A stretch of 40,300 nt of DNA from Holophagaceae bacterium (GTDB lineage Bacteria > Acidobacteriota > Holophagae > Holophagales > Holophagaceae): positions 1 through 40,300 of the forward strand of contig PLUC01000116.1 of the NCBI GenBank assembly GCA_003165415.1, read 5' to 3'. The notes under the pieces are model-generated. The model did not search any database. It was not told where the DNA came from and saw nothing but the letters and a program-made list of their open reading frames with translations. The position numbers were made by a program, and so were the translations under genes. Positions 6,525 through 40,250 of the stretch are shown piece after piece. Within the stretch, counting starts at the first letter, position 1, and each line of letters begins with the position of its first letter.

Positions 6525-6902
6525 ACGACCCCTCCCTGGAGGGAGGAGCTTTCCACTGCACAAGGAGGTAGGCCTCATGCGCGAATTCAGGGCGGTTTAC
6601 AACGCCCCTTGCCGGTCTGGAAAGTCCGGCAAACCTGACTATGTTCCGGCTTGCGCCGCTGTGTGTCAGGTTCCCACAGGCCCGGGCAAAGCGGAGCTGT
6701 GCCCGTTCTTCAAGGCCGACATTGACTGGCCGACTCTGCCGTTGCTCGTTGCCGGGATTAACCTTACGCCTAGGTTTGGGCGCCTGACTACCGTTGGACT
6801 GGAGACGACGGCTTTTCATGTTGAATTTTTCCACATGACCCGTATGAGTGTCAAGCATAAAATCCTCCAAGCCCTAAAGGGCGGAGTTTTCTGGACAATC
6901 CG
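6521..6902 (+). ncRNA. Candidate structured RNA / non-autonomous IS200-IS605-type element, copy 1 (HEARO / IscB omega-RNA-like)
   Basis: Shares GTAAACRACCCCT...GCACAAGG...ATGCGCGAATTCAGGRCGGTTTAC...CCCTAAAGGRCGGAGTTTYCTGGACAA with 11857-12110. Stem substitutions are compensated between copies. Ends flush with ATGA at 6903. Confidence 0.7.
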
Positions 6903-7976
6903 ATGAACCCGCTGGAAACCCTCGTCGCTTCCCATCTGGCCGCGGGCCCCATGCCGGCGGCGGAGGTGATGGAGCTCGCGCTCTACCATCCCGAAGCCGG
7001 CTATTACCGCCGGTCCCAGGGCCCCTGGGGCTTCCAGGGGGCCGACTACTACACCGCCCTGGACCTGGGCCCGCTGCTGGGGGAGGCCATGGCCTGCCGC
7101 CTGGGCCAGGCCTGGGAGCGCCTGGGCCGGCCCGACCCCTTCGTGGTCCTGGAGCCCGGCGCCGGCCGCGGCTGGCTGGGCCGGGACCTGCTCCAGGCCG
7201 CCGTCGGCCCCTTCGCCCAGGCCCTGCGCTACCTGCACCGGGACGATAATCCCGCCGCCGCCGCCGCGGCCCGGGAAGCCCTGGCGCCGTTCCTGGCCTC
7301 CGGCCAGGCCCGGCTGGTGGCCCAGGACGAACCGCTGGAACCCTTCCGTGGCGCGATCATCTCCAACGAGCTGTTCGACGCCCTGCCCGCCCAGCCCTGG
7401 CGCTGGGACGGCGGGCGCTGGAGCTACGAGGCCCTGGCCACCGGTCCGGTCTGGCTGCCGGGAGAACCTTGCGAAGCCACCGCCTGGTTCACCGCCCAGG
7501 CCGAAGGCGGGCTGGAATCCGGCGACGGCGCCCCCTGGTGCGAGGCCCTGCCCGCCCTGGTGCAGGACCTGGCCGCGACCCTGGAGGCAGGCCTGTTCCT
7601 CACCATCGACTACGGCGACACCGCCGCCCGGCTGGTGGACAAGGGCGCCGACCTGCGCCGCTTCCGGGGTCACGAAGTGGACGGCAAGTGGTGGGAGGAC
7701 CTGGGCGGCTCCGACCTCACCGCCGACGTGGACTTCACCCGCCTGGCCCTGCTGCTGGAGCGGGAAGGCCTCGCGGAGACCTCGCACCTGAGCCTGGGCC
7801 GCTGGATCCGCACCCACGCCCCCCTGGCCCGCTGGGAAACGGAGTGGCAGTCCTTGGACGCCGCGGCCCGCCTTGGCCGCATGGAGAACCTGCTGCAGCT
7901 GACCCTGCCCACCCTGATGGGCGACCGGTTCCGGGTGCTGGAGGCCTGGTGCGGCTGCGGAGAATCCCAGCTCTAA
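6903..7976 (+). CDS. Class I SAM-dependent methyltransferase, MidA/NDUFAF7 (DUF185) family
   Basis: MNPLETLVASHLAAGPMPAAEVMELALYHPEAGYYRRSQGPWGFQGADYYTALDLGPLLGEAMA...; FVVLEPGAGRGWLGRDLL SAM motif; ISNELFDALP. Confidence 0.88.
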   Translation: MNPLETLVASHLAAGPMPAAEVMELALYHPEAGYYRRSQGPWGFQGADYYTALDLGPLLGEAMACRLGQAWERLGRPDPFVVLEPGAGRGWLGRDLLQAAVGPFAQALRYLHRDDNPAAAAAAREALAPFLASGQARLVAQDEPLEPFRGAIISNELFDALPAQPWRWDGGRWSYEALATGPVWLPGEPCEATAWFTAQAEGGLESGDGAPWCEALPALVQDLAATLEAGLFLTIDYGDTAARLVDKGADLRRFRGHEVDGKWWEDLGGSDLTADVDFTRLALLLEREGLAETSHLSLGRWIRTHAPLARWETEWQSLDAAARLGRMENLLQLTLPTLMGDRFRVLEAWCGCGESQL

Positions 7977-11856: not shown

Positions 11857-12110
11857 GTAAACAACCCCTGCCGAATGGAAAGAGCCTTCCGCTGCACAAG
11901 GACAAACCCGATGCGCGAATTCAGGACGGTTTACGACGCCCCTTGCAGAACTGGAAAGTTCAGCAAACCTGGCTATGTTCCGACTCGCGTTCACGTCGCT
12001 GTGTGCCAGGTTCCCACAGGGTTTCATTTCGTTATTATTTCGCCAACCCGAATGGGTGTCAAGCATCCATTTCTTCCCGCCCTAAAGGACGGAGTTTCCT
12101 GGACAAGCAG
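11857..12110 (+). ncRNA. Candidate structured RNA / non-autonomous IS200-IS605-type element, copy 2 (internally shortened)
   Basis: Homologous to 6521-6902 from GTAAAC to GGACAA; compensated stems; about 128 nt shorter in the middle; ends flush with ATGA of rsfS at 12111. Confidence 0.7.
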
Positions 12111-12491
12111 ATGAACCTTGATAAACGGCTTGTGAGCGTCATTGAAGCGGCACGCTCCAAGAAGGCCTTCCGGATCCGGTTGCTGGACGTGTCGGGCATC
12201 GCCAGCTTCACCGATACCTTCGCGTTCATGTGCGGCGGCAGCGACCGCCAGAACCGGGCCGTGGCCGACGCCATCGAGGAGGCCCTCAAGTTCGCCGGGG
12301 TGCGCCCCCTCTCCACCGAGGGCGCCCAGAACGGCAACTGGATCCTGCTGGACTACGGGGACTTCATCATCCACGTCATGGACGAGGAAACGCGCAGTTT
12401 CTACAACCTGGAAGGCCTCTGGAGCGGCGGGCGCGAACTGCAGCTCCCGGTCGAGGCCGTTCCCGGCTCCACCGACAAATCCGAGAGGTAG
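12111..12491 (+). CDS. rsfS: Ribosomal silencing factor RsfS
   Basis: MNLDKRLVSVIEAARSKKAFRIRLLDVSGIASFTDTFAFMCGGSDRQNRAVADAIEEALK...GNWILLDYGDFIIHVMDEETRSFYNLEGLW. Confidence 0.95.
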   Translation: MNLDKRLVSVIEAARSKKAFRIRLLDVSGIASFTDTFAFMCGGSDRQNRAVADAIEEALKFAGVRPLSTEGAQNGNWILLDYGDFIIHVMDEETRSFYNLEGLWSGGRELQLPVEAVPGSTDKSER

Positions 12492-16220: not shown

Positions 16221-16290
16221 AGAACCTCCAAGGTGCGGACAGACTCCAGTCTATCGTTTCGGGGCTTTGCTTCTTTACAGGATATCCTTA

Positions 16291-16392
16291 GGGGCCGTTG
16301 CGAAATAATCTGTGCAGTTCAGATTATTTCGCTACGGTCCTTTATGCCGGGGCCGCACTGAACTGTTCGGGCTAATTTCGGATAACGGCTTA
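16291..16392 (-). repeat. Short palindromic repeat element, copy B
   Basis: Reverse complement TAAGCCGTTATCCGAAATTAGCCCGAACAG...CGGCCCCGGCATAAAGGACCGTAGCGAAATAATCTGAACTGCACAGATTATTTCGCAACGGCC aligns along its length with 40137-40240. Confidence 0.8.
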
Positions 16393-16413: not shown

Positions 16414-17601
16414 ATGCGCTACACCGTTAAATTTACAACTGTCGCCGGGGAGCTCCTGACCCGGGATTTCGAGGGCACCTCCATTCCCGAAGTGCGGGAC
16501 CGGGTCCTGGCCGAAGGCCATTTCCCCATGGAAGTGAAGCGTTCCGGGGCGGCCTTCCGCCGCCAGCGGACCATCTCGGCCGCCTCCCTGATCCTGTTCA
16601 ACCAGGAACTGCTGGCTTTGCTCAGGGCCGGCATTCCCCTGCTGCAGTCCCTGGAACTGCTGGTGGGCCACGGCAAGGACCCGCTGCTGCGCAACTCCCT
16701 GGACCGGGTGGTGGAACTGCTGAAGGAGGGCATGTCCTTCTCCGAAGCCCTGGAGCAGGTGGGCACCTTCCCCCCGGTCTACCGGGCCAACGTGGTGGCG
16801 GGCGAGCGGAGCGGCACCCTGCCGGAGGTGATCGGCCGCTGGCTGTCGTTCCAGGCCTTCGCCCAGAACAGCCGCCGGCGCATCGTCGAGGCCATGGTCT
16901 ACCCGATGTTCCTGGTGGTGGTGATGATCATCGCCCTGGCGGTGATCTTCAACGTGGTCCTGCCGCGGTTCTCCGAGATCTACTCCGGCAGCGGCATCGA
17001 GATGCCCGCGGCCACCGCGCTGCTCCTGGACATGGGCGAGTTCGTGCGCAAGACCATCTACTTCCAGGCGGCCGGCCTGGTGGTGCTGGGCTTCTTCCTG
17101 CGCTGGATGTTCACCACCGAGGCGGGCAAGCGCATCTGGGAGCAGTTCATCCTGATCATCCCCCGCATGGGGACCCTGTACCGGATGTACCACTCCTCCA
17201 TCTTCACCCGCACCCTGGGGGTGCTGCTGGCAGGGGGCATGCCCGTGCTCCAGGCCCTGGAGGTGATCCAGCGCACCACCCCCAGCGAGCGCATGCGCCT
17301 GCGCCTGCTCAACGTCACCGAGCTGGTGCGGGCCGGGTCCTCCCTGCACCTGGCCCTGGACCAGTCCAAGCTGCTGGATCCCCTGGCGGTGGAGATGACC
17401 CGGGTGGGCGAGCAGTCCTCGGCCCTGCCCGACATGCTCAACCACGTGGCCGACTTCTTCGACCAGGAAGTGGAGAAGGCCACCACCGCCGTCACCACCC
17501 TCATCGGCCCGATCCTCATCCTGGCCATGGGCGTGATGGTCCTGGGCCTCCTGCTGGCGGTCTACGTGCCCCTGTTCAACGCCGGCAGCATGGTTCACTA
17601 G
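16414..17601 (+). CDS. Type II secretion / type IV pilus inner membrane protein, GspF/PilC family
   Basis: MRYTVKFTTVAGELLTRDFEGTSIPEVRDRVLAEGHFPMEV; two T2SSF domains (LLALLRAGIPLLQSLELL; GVLLAGGMPVLQALEVI). Confidence 0.92.
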   Translation: MRYTVKFTTVAGELLTRDFEGTSIPEVRDRVLAEGHFPMEVKRSGAAFRRQRTISAASLILFNQELLALLRAGIPLLQSLELLVGHGKDPLLRNSLDRVVELLKEGMSFSEALEQVGTFPPVYRANVVAGERSGTLPEVIGRWLSFQAFAQNSRRRIVEAMVYPMFLVVVMIIALAVIFNVVLPRFSEIYSGSGIEMPAATALLLDMGEFVRKTIYFQAAGLVVLGFFLRWMFTTEAGKRIWEQFILIIPRMGTLYRMYHSSIFTRTLGVLLAGGMPVLQALEVIQRTTPSERMRLRLLNVTELVRAGSSLHLALDQSKLLDPLAVEMTRVGEQSSALPDMLNHVADFFDQEVEKATTAVTTLIGPILILAMGVMVLGLLLAVYVPLFNAGSMVH

Positions 17602-17611
17602 CCTTACTGAG

Positions 17612-18030
17612 GCGTCCGTGGTCCCGCCCGTCGTGCCTTCCTGTTTCGTTCGGGTTCCTTGGTGATGCGCCGACCCATCGGTGCGTCAGATCTTTGGAAC
17701 GTGCTCGACGGCTTCGCCGCCTGCGCGCGATCCAAAGTCTGACGCTGACCTTCCCCGCCTGAGTTCCAGGTTGCGGTTCAATGGCGGGAATAAGGGCGAA
17801 GGTGACAAAGGTCTGATCCCATAGACCCCGGGTTCCGGAATGGTTGTCGCGGATCGTCTTCCAATAACTGGTGACGTATCCAAAAAACCAGGCGGGGAAG
17901 GTCTGCGTGAACTCTTGCAGCGCCCGCAGCGCAGCGAGGACGCTTCAAGAGATTCACGCACCGGTGGGTCGGCGCATCATTCTGGGACCCGAACGAAACA
18001 GGAAGGCACGACGGGCGGGACCACGGACAC
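17612..18030. repeat. Large cruciform-capable repeat element, copy 1
   Basis: About 75-bp near-perfect inverted arms GYGTCCGTGGTCCCGCCCGTCGTGCCTTCCTGTTTCGTTCGGGTYCC...TGATGCGCCGACCCAYCGGTGCGT; core highly similar to 24972-25400; no transposase-like ORF. Confidence 0.85.
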
Positions 18031-18035
18031 CTCAA

Positions 18036-18869
18036 TTAGGACTGGGAGCAAGGGTCGGCAAGGCTGGCGGGCCGGGCCACCCGCCAGATCTCCAGGAGCT
18101 GGTCCAGCAGCGCGCCGAACTGGTCCAGGCGCAGGGCGTTGGGGCCGTCGCTGAGGGCCTTGGCAGGGTCCTCGTGCACCTCGAAGAAGAAGCCGTCCAC
18201 CGCCGTGGCCGCGGCCCGGGCCAGGGTGGGGATCATCTCCCGGGCGCCCCCGGTGGCGGAGCCCAGGGCCCCGGGCTTCTGCACGCTGTGGGTGGCGTCG
18301 AAGATCACCGGGCACCCGGTGCGGCGCAGGTGGGGGAACGCCTGGAAGTCCACCACCAGGTTGCCGTAGCCGAAGCTGGAGCCGCGCTCGGTGACCCACA
18401 CCGGGCCGTGCCCGGAAACGCTCTGGACCTTCTGCACGGCATGCTGGAGGTCCCAGGGGGCCAGGAACTGGCCTTTCTTGATGTTCACCGGGCGGCCGGT
18501 GGCCGCGGCGGCGGTGAGGAGGTCGGTCTGGCGGCACAGGAAGGCGGGAATCTGCAGCACGTCCACCGCCTCGGCCACCAACGCGCACTGGGCCGACTCA
18601 TGGACGTCCGTGAGCACCGGCACCCCGATGCGGGAGCGCACCTCGGAGAGGATGTCCAGGCCCTCGGCCATGGACGAGCCCCGGAAGCTGTTCAGGGAAG
18701 TGCGGTTAGCCTTGTCGAAACTGGCCTTGAAAATGAACGGGATGCCCCGGGCCTCGGCCAGGTCCTGGAGTTGGGCGGCCAGGAAATAGGTGTGTTCCCG
18801 GGACTCGATGACGCAAGGCCCGGCGATGAGAAAAAAACTGCGCTCGGTGAACGGGCGGATGAAATCCAT
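18036..18869 (-). CDS. kdsA: 3-deoxy-8-phosphooctulonate synthase
   Basis: FFLIAGPCVIESREHTYFLAAQLQDLA...FIFKASFDKANRTSLNSFRGSSMAEGLDIL...TERGSSFGYGNLVVDFQAF. Confidence 0.96.
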   Translation of the reverse strand: MDFIRPFTERSFFLIAGPCVIESREHTYFLAAQLQDLAEARGIPFIFKASFDKANRTSLNSFRGSSMAEGLDILSEVRSRIGVPVLTDVHESAQCALVAEAVDVLQIPAFLCRQTDLLTAAAATGRPVNIKKGQFLAPWDLQHAVQKVQSVSGHGPVWVTERGSSFGYGNLVVDFQAFPHLRRTGCPVIFDATHSVQKPGALGSATGGAREMIPTLARAAATAVDGFFFEVHEDPAKALSDGPNALRLDQFGALLDQLLEIWRVARPASLADPCSQS

Positions 18870-23713: not shown

Positions 23714-24961
23714 ATGGCATTGTTTTCTCGATTTTTCACGTCCGCTGAGCGCAAACCCTTGCCCAGCCTGGAGGAGATCCTCGCGCTCCGGAACCTGCCC
23801 ATGGATCTGCCCGGGCTGGAGCCCCTCAAGGAGGAGTTCAGGCACCTGAGCGCCGAAGAGCGGGTCCAGTGGGGCGACGCGCTCCAGGACCTGGTGGCCC
23901 GCGGCTGGCCGCTCCCTCCGCTCTGGCTGGATGCCCAGTACGACCTTGCCCCGCGGCTGGTGCCGGTGTGGGTGGCGGAGCGGGACGGCTATTTCTTCCG
24001 GCCCTTCGTTGACGGGCTCGCCCTGCGCATGGTGGCCGGCGGCCAGACCCTGCCGGCCGCCTGGCTCACCCTCTGGGGCGTCACCTGGGAGGATGTCCTG
24101 GACCGGAGCCTCGAGCAGCTGCGGGAGCATTCCCGGCAAATCCCCTTCCGGCGCCAGCCCTCGGGCATCTACCGGGGCGAGTTCCCGGACGGCCAGAGCG
24201 CCTCCAGGTTCCTGCTGCCTGAACTCTGGAGCGGCCTGTTCCCGGGCCAGAACACCTTCATCGCCATTCCCGGCGAGGACGAGCTGCTGGTGGCGCCGCA
24301 GGTGCTGCTGCCGCAGCTGGTGGAGGCCATCTCCAAGTCCCTGGCCGGCCCCGCCCCCCGGCTCATGGGCACCATCTATCAGCAGGTGGGGCAGAATTTC
24401 CTCCCCGCCACCCTGCAGGATCCGCACCCCATGGCCCAGCCGCAGCGGGAGCTGAGGCAGGCGGACCTCATCGAGGCCTACAAGGCCCAGGAGGGTTGCT
24501 TCCCGCCCGAGCTGGGCCATCCCGCCCCGGCCGGAGTGGTCAGGACCAAGCAGGGGCGCTCCGTGAGCTACACCACCTGGCAGGAGGGCCGGCCGGCGCT
24601 GCTGCCCGACACCGACCTGATCGGCTTCGTGGCCGCCAACGGACGGCCCCTGGGCATCTACTTCCGCCAGACCCTGCCCCGGATCTCGGAAATCCACGGC
24701 ACTCCAGTGGACATCTGGGGACCCCGGCGGATCCGCTACGAGGCCTTTCCTACCGTCGACCAGCTGGCCCGGCTGGAGTGCTTCGCCACCGGCGAGCAGA
24801 TGACCGACATGTTCGTGGCCGCCGGGCCCGCCAAGCATAGGCCGGTGAACGCCCCCATGCAGGACCTGGCCAGTTCCGGTGCCCGCGCCGCCCAGGCGTC
24901 CAGCCCCGTGCCCGCCCACCTGCGCGGCCTCAGCCTCGGCATGCAGAGCGACGACGACTAG
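23714..24961 (+). CDS. Hypothetical protein, possibly DUF1444-like
   Basis: Intact ORF of 415 aa; WGVTWEDVLDRSLEQLREHS and FIAIPGEDELLVAPQ are reminiscent of DUF1444; not verified. Confidence 0.65.
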   Translation: MALFSRFFTSAERKPLPSLEEILALRNLPMDLPGLEPLKEEFRHLSAEERVQWGDALQDLVARGWPLPPLWLDAQYDLAPRLVPVWVAERDGYFFRPFVDGLALRMVAGGQTLPAAWLTLWGVTWEDVLDRSLEQLREHSRQIPFRRQPSGIYRGEFPDGQSASRFLLPELWSGLFPGQNTFIAIPGEDELLVAPQVLLPQLVEAISKSLAGPAPRLMGTIYQQVGQNFLPATLQDPHPMAQPQRELRQADLIEAYKAQEGCFPPELGHPAPAGVVRTKQGRSVSYTTWQEGRPALLPDTDLIGFVAANGRPLGIYFRQTLPRISEIHGTPVDIWGPRRIRYEAFPTVDQLARLECFATGEQMTDMFVAAGPAKHRPVNAPMQDLASSGARAAQASSPVPAHLRGLSLGMQSDDD

Positions 24962-24971
24962 TCAAGCCGAA

Positions 24972-25400
24972 GCGTCCGTTGTCCCGCCCGTCGCGCCTAC
25001 CTGTTTCGTTCGGGTCCCGTATCGATGCGCCGACCCACCGATGCGTCAGATCCTTGGAACGTGCTCGGCGGCTTCGCCGCCTGCGCGCGATCCAAGGTCT
25101 GACGCTGACCTTCCCCGCCTGAGTTCCAGGTTGCGGTTCAGTGGTGGCAATGACGGCAATGGCGGCAAAAGTGGCGATGGTCTGATCCCATAGGCCCCGG
25201 GTCCCGGAATGGTTGCCACGAATCGTCTTCCAATGACGGGTGACGTATCCAAAAATACCAGGCGGGGAAGGTCTGCGTGAACTCTTGCAGCGCCCGCAGC
25301 GCAGCGAGGACGCTTCAAGAGATTCACGCACCGGTGGGTCGGCGCACTGCTATGGGACCTGTACGAAACGAGAAGGCGCGACGGGCGGAACAACGGACGC
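24972..25400. repeat. Large cruciform-capable repeat element, copy 2
   Basis: Arms GCGTCCGTTGTYCCGCCCGTCGCGCC...TTTCGT...GGTCCC...TGCGCCGACCCACCGRTGCGT inverted at both ends; core near-identical to 17612-18030. Confidence 0.85.
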
Positions 25401-25416
25401 CGCAGGAGCACCAGGC

Positions 25417-39310: not shown

Positions 39311-40130
39311 CCTGCCGCCGGACCTGGGCGCCGCCCTGGCCCGGATCCGGGAACGGGCGCCGTTCGTGCCGGAATTGGCCATCGTGCTGGGCTCCGGGCT
39401 GGGCGCCCTGGCCGCCTGCCCCGAAGCCGCCGCCGGCTTCCACCTGGACTTCACCGAGCTGGGCTTCCCGGCGCAGACGGTGCCGGGGCACACGGGCCGG
39501 CTGATCTTTTGCGAACTGGAGGGGCGCCGGGTGGTGCTCCAGGCCGGCCGGTTCCACGGCTACGAAGGCCACCCCATGGCCCTGGTCACCGGGTCCATGC
39601 GGCTCTACGGGCGCCTGGGGGTCAGGGCCGTGGTGCACACCAACGCCGCCGGGGCCGTCAACGCCGGGTTCCGGGTGGGCCAGCTGATGGTGCTCACCGA
39701 CCACATCAACCTCATGGGCGGCAATCCGCTCACCGGGCCCAACCTGGAACCGGGACCCCGGTTCCCGGACATGACCGCCGCCTACGACCCTGACCTGCGC
39801 CGGCAGCTGCACGGGGCGGCCGCGGCCCTGGGGCAGACCCTCCAGGAAGGGGTGTACGTGGCCGTTCCCGGCCCCAGCTTCGAGACCCCGGCTGAGATCC
39901 GGGCCTTCCGCGTCCTGGGCGCCGACGCCGTGGGCATGAGCACGGTCCCCGAGGTGATCGTGGCCCGCCAAGAGGGCCTGCGGGTCGCGGCCATCTCCTG
40001 CCTCTGCAACATGGCCGCCGGCATGCTGCCCCAGCCGCTCAGCCACCTGGAGGTGCTGGAGGCCGGCGCCGCCGCCGCGGGGGCCTTCGAGGCCCTGATC
40101 CGGGCTTTCCTGAAGAACCTGGTCCTCTAA
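39282..40130 (+). CDS. Purine nucleoside phosphorylase
   Basis: IVLGSGLGALAA, VPGHTGRL, GRFHGYEGHPM, VVHTNAAGAVNAGFRVGQLMVLTDHINLMGGNPLTGPN, VGMSTVPEVIVARQEGLRVAAISCLCNMAAG. Start within 39036..40130 ORF inferred; overlaps upstream gene. Confidence 0.93.
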   Translation: MCKSPSPSSDLPPDLGAALARIRERAPFVPELAIVLGSGLGALAACPEAAAGFHLDFTELGFPAQTVPGHTGRLIFCELEGRRVVLQAGRFHGYEGHPMALVTGSMRLYGRLGVRAVVHTNAAGAVNAGFRVGQLMVLTDHINLMGGNPLTGPNLEPGPRFPDMTAAYDPDLRRQLHGAAAALGQTLQEGVYVAVPGPSFETPAEIRAFRVLGADAVGMSTVPEVIVARQEGLRVAAISCLCNMAAGMLPQPLSHLEVLEAGAAAAGAFEALIRAFLKNLVL

Positions 40131-40136
40131 CGGCGC

Positions 40137-40240
40137 TAAGCCGTTGTCTAGAATTAACCTGAACAGGCCGTTTCGGCCCCGGTATAAGCAGCCGTAGCGG
40201 AATAGCCTGAACTGCACAGGCTATTCCACAACGGCTGCTA
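40137..40240 (+). repeat. Short palindromic repeat element, copy C
   Basis: AGCAGCCGTAGCGGAATAGCCTG-AACTGCA-CAGGCTATTCCACAACGGCTGCT, 23-bp stem with two mismatches; homologous to minus strand of 16291-16392. Confidence 0.8.
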
Positions 40241-40250
40241 ACCTGTTGAC

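Follow-up and report, generated by a model that had tools for sequence, protein, structure and literature searches.

The gap between a phosphorylase gene and mutL near the end of the window analysed here (the whole 40,300-nt stretch of Holophagaceae DNA) is occupied by an imperfect palindrome, and the locus raises the question of whether such an element is an RNA structure serving its neighbours or a piece of mobile DNA and, in the latter case, to which kind of system it belongs. The phosphorylase gene (PNP_UDP_1, PF01048; purine nucleoside phosphorylase-type) ends at 40130, the palindromic element (copy C) begins 6 bases past its stop, and the start codon of mutL, whose MutL N-terminus is read from 40251, lies 9 bases beyond the element's end, confirming both neighbour genes named in the original prediction. 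Copy C spans 40137-40241 on the plus strand (105 nt; 124.6 bits, E 3e-32 against covariance model R1); the prediction had located it correctly but, in reporting 40137-40240, had stopped one base short of the true end at 40241. Copy B, at 16288-16392 on the minus strand (108.4 bits), lies upstream of gspF, a type II secretion F gene (T2SSF), and is a copy of the same element. The covariance-model search found just these two copies in the window, and no "copy A".

Comparison of about 105 copies from the window genome (G000) and genomes G007, G015, G017, G019 and G023 reveals a constant layout, in which a target TAA is followed by a weak hairpin 1, an ATAA linker, a strong 22-bp hairpin 2 and a terminal CTAA. 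For copy C, the left TAA (40137-40139) is the presumed insertion target and would lie outside the moving unit, as suggested by the variable left triplet and the empty site described below. Hairpin 1 (40140-40183), delimited by pair counts and folds, has the basal stem GCCG ... CGGT (CGGC in most copies); the linker (40184-40187) is taken from alignment A1; hairpin 2 (40188-40238), supported by covariation, the pair table and folds, comprises a 5' arm (40188-40209), a loop (40210-40216) and a 3' arm (40217-40238), with mismatches A.A at 40196/40230 and C.A at 40198/40228; and the right-end TAA of the intrinsic CTAA occupies 40239-40241, the stem being closed by C 40238. The corresponding parts of copy B, on the minus strand, are TAA 16392-16390, hairpin 1 16389-16346, ATAA 16345-16342, hairpin 2 16341-16291 (loop 16319-16313) and TAA 16290-16288. 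The stem-loops first described, GGAATAGCCTG-AACTGCA-CAGGCTATTCC in copy C and GAAATAATCTG-AACTGCA-CAGATTATTTC in copy B, proved exact; hairpin 2 had thus been seen, but hairpin 1, the ATAA linker, the CTAA end and the TAA target had been missed.

Across the family, hairpin 1 has a basal stem of 4-7 bp, GCCG...CGGC with compensated variants GTCG...CGAC, and Watson-Crick pairing holds at its four basal positions in 93-99 of 101 copies. The stem of hairpin 2 counts 22 paired positions; pair 9 is a conserved A-mismatch, pair 10 is usually a second irregular pair, and the 7-nt loop reads AAMWGCR. The recurrent purine.A mismatch pointed out earlier is real: among 98 unique copies, pair 9 is A.A or A.C in 75, and just 14 have a Watson-Crick pair there. 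The loop AACTGCA, which had been thought fixed, is present in a subset (21/98) and is followed in frequency by AAAAGCA, AAATGCA and AAAAGCG. The right end is CTAA in 91/105 copies, its C being the last base of the hairpin 2 3' arm. There is also a short form (70-78 nt) in which hairpin 1 is reduced to a minimum, and some G000 copies carry a third palindromic module of about 36 nt after ATAA, of two sequence types. Two further G000 loci, L034 and L113, are single-hairpin derivatives with the left arm fused directly to the right 3' arm, and are probably deletions between the repeated arms.

The claim of a compensated stem was borne out on 74 right halves, where changes on both sides occur at 18 of 20 stem pairs. 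Paired cells amount to 93.6%, against 82% in shuffled alignments and 34-45% with partners slid, and double-sided changes affect 159 cells, the corresponding control values being 36 and 12-25, respectively; none of the controls (500 shuffles plus the slid registers) approaches the observed values. Single-strand folding (z = -5.3 to -7.0), together with the number of genome matches given below, likewise puts the element well outside chance. Additional copies, put forward at the outset as a possible refutation, keep the pairing, but many lack the loop AACTGCA. Covariation within a palindromic repeat is, however, no proof of RNA on its own. Stem covariation, an RNA fold of high stability (z -6.5) and positions just past stop codons are what a functional RNA or an mRNA 3'-end structure in operon gaps (a terminator, exonuclease block or small RNA) would display; against this, orientation relative to genes is random (upstream genes, 44 on the same strand vs 48 opposite; downstream, 53 vs 47), copy C has no U-tract, terminator or promoter pattern, and the element is patchy between congeners and occurs in nested and tandem copies. 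The non-standard pairs of hairpin 2 comprise 80 A.C and 54 G.T, which argues that the written strand has no RNA-type G.U tolerance, and a search of the whole window against Rfam yielded no match at the gathering threshold. We therefore regard the RNA reading as very improbable, and the small RNA suggested earlier as unlikely given the random gene orientation, the lack of promoter or terminator signals and the lack of a G.U preference. The structure may still influence mRNA ends secondarily, in the way REPs are known to.

The number and distribution of copies bear directly on mobility. In the 4.84 Mb window genome, BLAST together with a 19-copy covariance model locates the element at 47 places with scores over 50 bits; of the 98 raw matches, roughly half arose because the palindromic hairpin also matches its own opposite strand, and these were left uncounted. 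Among 77 Holophagaceae genomes, most of them MAGs, matches are found in 39, in a patchy pattern that covers 7 of 11 genera under stricter filters, with at least 10 matches in ten genomes, among which are all five members of one genus. No match came from the 16 genomes of two sister families in the same class, nor, at E <= 1e-6, from five further genomes (three closed) that belong to the genus of the window, a looser search returning one weak match in a congener. Exact hairpin matches in named records all come from Acidobacteriota, Holophagaceae or Geothrix MAGs, and the plasmid and phage records searched contained no element match. G015 and its congener G023 shared no element positions in the sample compared. 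The pgk-tpiA gap is occupied in two genera (L192 in G015 and L213 in G017), as an inherited insertion or a hot spot.

The window and its genome contain other repeats. Two copies of a repeat of about 440 nt, with inverted arms of 96-106 nt, lie at 17597-18040 and 24957-25405, and an intergenic pair at 6577-6909 and 11911-12117 shares 82-87% identity over blocks of 72-79 nt, the second copy having a shorter middle. An insertion sequence of G000 with ends CTGCAGTTTGGACTTTTCGTCC and CTGCAGTTTGGACATTCCGTCC is represented by about 60 ends, mostly at contig breaks (L157-L176, as well as L126, L129, L130 and L132); the near-perfect palindromes that both kinds of end nearly always adjoin vary in sequence and include the middle module of the element, and this insertion sequence seems to target hairpins. 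Shorter simple palindromes such as TAGCAGCCGTTACGGAGCTTGCTCCGTTACGGCTGCTA (L163, L166, L170 and L175 in G000) have the same outer bases as the right end of the element, and some are apparently located directly 3' of stop codons.

Direct signs of movement come from individual copies. Three copies in G015 are 100% identical at unrelated sites and several more are 96-99% identical, and two loci in G017 (L177, L178) contain head-to-tail tandem copies with one TAA in common. At L179, a nested copy of 103 nt lies directly 3' of GCATAA within a resident copy, and removing these 103 nt restores a complete resident element (reference L070, L086), providing a perfect empty site. The left triplet is TAA in 60/105 copies and otherwise TAG, CAA, TGA and others, so that non-TAA triplets are far more frequent on the left (45/105) than on the right (11/105; Fisher p = 1.3e-7). 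A variable left triplet combined with a constant right CTAA indicates that the left one is the target and the right one part of the element, a pattern that is not that of target duplication. Near-identical copies may differ in the same way, L182 and L188 having a left TAG and a right CTAA and closely matching copies with a left TAA, although single cases of left TAG could reflect later mutation of TAA. Local GC skew was positive at 44/105 copies in a strand-bias test, for which the contigs are too short.

TIR MITEs with a TAA/TTA duplication are of the Tourist/PIF and IS5-IS1031 type. The TAA at both flanks and the imperfect inverted repeats at the ends liken the element to them and might suggest a TIR MITE whose mover is an IS5/PIF-like DDE transposase that duplicates a 3-bp TAA target. 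We consider this quite improbable: a left TAG or TGA accompanies a right TAA even among near-identical copies, the left end being variable and the right constant; there is a three-base offset between the ends (GCCG vs GGGGCCG); and an internal covarying hairpin would not be expected. The element behaves instead as non-autonomous mobile DNA rather than as an RNA gene, and we take its mobility and its boundaries to be established at the level of sequence comparison.

The boundaries so defined coincide with gene ends. Among neighbour genes, called with a simple codon-usage gene finder, 11 of the 43 upstream genes that read towards the element have the left triplet itself as their stop, and for 15 of 45 downstream genes reading in, the stop falls precisely within the terminal TTAG (TTAA or ATAG in rare cases). 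An element end therefore supplies the stop of a neighbour gene at one exact offset in 26 cases (p = 1e-15 and 6e-22, under a rough uniform null and with copies that are not fully independent), and start codons show no comparable offset peak. This coincidence would follow from a TAA target and selection against gene damage, because TAA is rare within GC-rich genes and common at stops, so that insertion 3' of TAA would frequently land on stop codons and leave the gene unharmed. Active aiming at stop codons may also take place, TAA, TAG and TGA all being seen as used stops. Insertion directly after a stop provides a mobile element with a cheap way of spreading through dense genomes.

Several candidates for the enzyme responsible were evaluated and rejected. 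Partial copies (L022, L025, L037) and the neighbourhood of C49 were inspected for a longer autonomous copy sharing the ends of the element, and contained no transposase; clustering of neighbour genes at 135 loci gave no recurrent transposase, only common families and frames running through the element. An IS91/helitron-like Y2 partner (PF04986) went undetected in G015, G017 and G023 and is abundant in the element-free G001, showing no parallel with the distribution of the element. Integron attC sites were considered as well, and by eye their motifs RYYYAAC/GTTRRRY are lacking at the element ends. The Y1 domain (PF01797) is found somewhat more often where the element is abundant (5/10 vs 6/38, p = 0.036, among the 77 family genomes searched), a weak association for a RAYT/Y1 partner, with half of the rich genomes giving no PF01797 match. 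Holophagaceae Y1 matches are mostly proteins of IS200 size, with IS200-type ends where inspected. Derivation from a local IS200 was likewise rejected, since terminal hairpins and motifs differ: IS200 ends in G000, G004, G007, G072, G087 and others are unlike those of the element, which therefore has no ends in common with these autonomous tnpA-bearing copies. One locus ORF (L121, G015:C325, 1-2565) contains a Y1/RAYT-like domain (22 bits, PF01797), apparently within a type I restriction HsdR-like protein.

These results weigh on the suggested REP/RAYT link, according to which the element would belong to a REP/REPIN family moved by RAYT/TnpA-REP, since lost or missed in some genomes. It is an imperfect extragenic palindrome with a conserved mismatch, its left end resembles the inverted right end, its right end contains the CT that TnpA-REP cleaves (PMC8266576), and Y1 is, as noted, somewhat commoner in rich genomes. 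The tetranucleotide GTAG is carried by 40 of the roughly 105 copies, but it varies to GTAA (25) and GCAG (17) and sits inside the stem, and thus does not constitute an invariant tag. Furthermore, hairpins 1 and 2 are unlike, no REPtron adjoins the copies, and Y1 went undetected in five of the ten element-richest genomes (G017, G023, G066, G069 and G089, within the limits of MAG incompleteness). Membership of the REP/RAYT system thus did not hold up as a claim, and we deem it unlikely.

The reading that we favour, and consider probable, is that of a non-autonomous mobile family of about 102 nt that inserts immediately 3' of a TAA-like trinucleotide. Y1 single-strand transposition involves contacts with hairpin mismatches and loops, insertion 3' of a short motif and a closing motif that follows the right hairpin (PMC6006769, PMC8266576). 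By analogy, a nicking transferase acting in trans, like TnpA of IS200/IS605 or TnpA-REP, would read the single-stranded hairpins, with the mismatch and loop as putative contacts and the ATAA linker perhaps as a guide; it would cleave 3' of TAA at both ends and join the excised strand to a new TAA. Because the searches for a mover came up empty, we infer this IS200/IS605-like or REP-like single-strand route, unlike mobility and boundaries, from likeness to known systems. A system of its own kind, in which a Holophagaceae-specific enzyme that is neither a recognized Y1 nor Y2 transposase reads two unlike hairpins and aims at stop triplets (TAA > TAG > TGA), is unlikely.

Comparison with known systems places the probable single-strand element close to two of them. 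PATE-type elements are gene-less derivatives of the IS200/IS605 family. Like members of that family, the element inserts 3' of a short motif and duplicates no target (as judged by L179 and the end asymmetry) and has subterminal imperfect hairpins at both ends and a terminal motif after the right one; unlike them, it has no tnpA or tnpB, its hairpin-to-hairpin unit measuring just about 102 nt. The same insertion logic is seen in Holophagaceae IS200 elements, which use TTAC or CTAG as the motif they insert behind and whose hairpin is followed by a terminal TTAC or CTTAG; their hairpin sequences are different. With REP, BIME and REPIN sequences, as portrayed in PMC3733652, PMC3116915 and PMC8266576, the element has in common short, extragenic, high-copy and imperfect palindromes with a stem mismatch and a patchy distribution; CGTC REPs, too, are described there as lacking a dedicated transposase (PMC3733652), and the phyla named for GTAG/CGTC palindromes in the available part of that source do not include Acidobacteria. 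Unlike REPs and REPINs, it combines two dissimilar hairpins in a unit of fixed layout, joined by ATAA and closed by CTAA, has a defined TAA target, and lacks both an invariant GTAG tag and a consistent RAYT. The enzyme's identity would tell whether Acidobacteriota possess a REP-like system of their own or a different hairpin-reading recombinase and, once it is found, the element would offer a compact substrate for testing, with target, boundaries and empty site all readable from sequence alone. The element appears to represent a new family of miniature mobile elements in Holophagaceae, built of two hairpins and lying beside stop codons, which fails tested defining features of both REP elements (the tag and RAYT) and IS200-derived elements (ends shared with an autonomous copy) and yet works like them.
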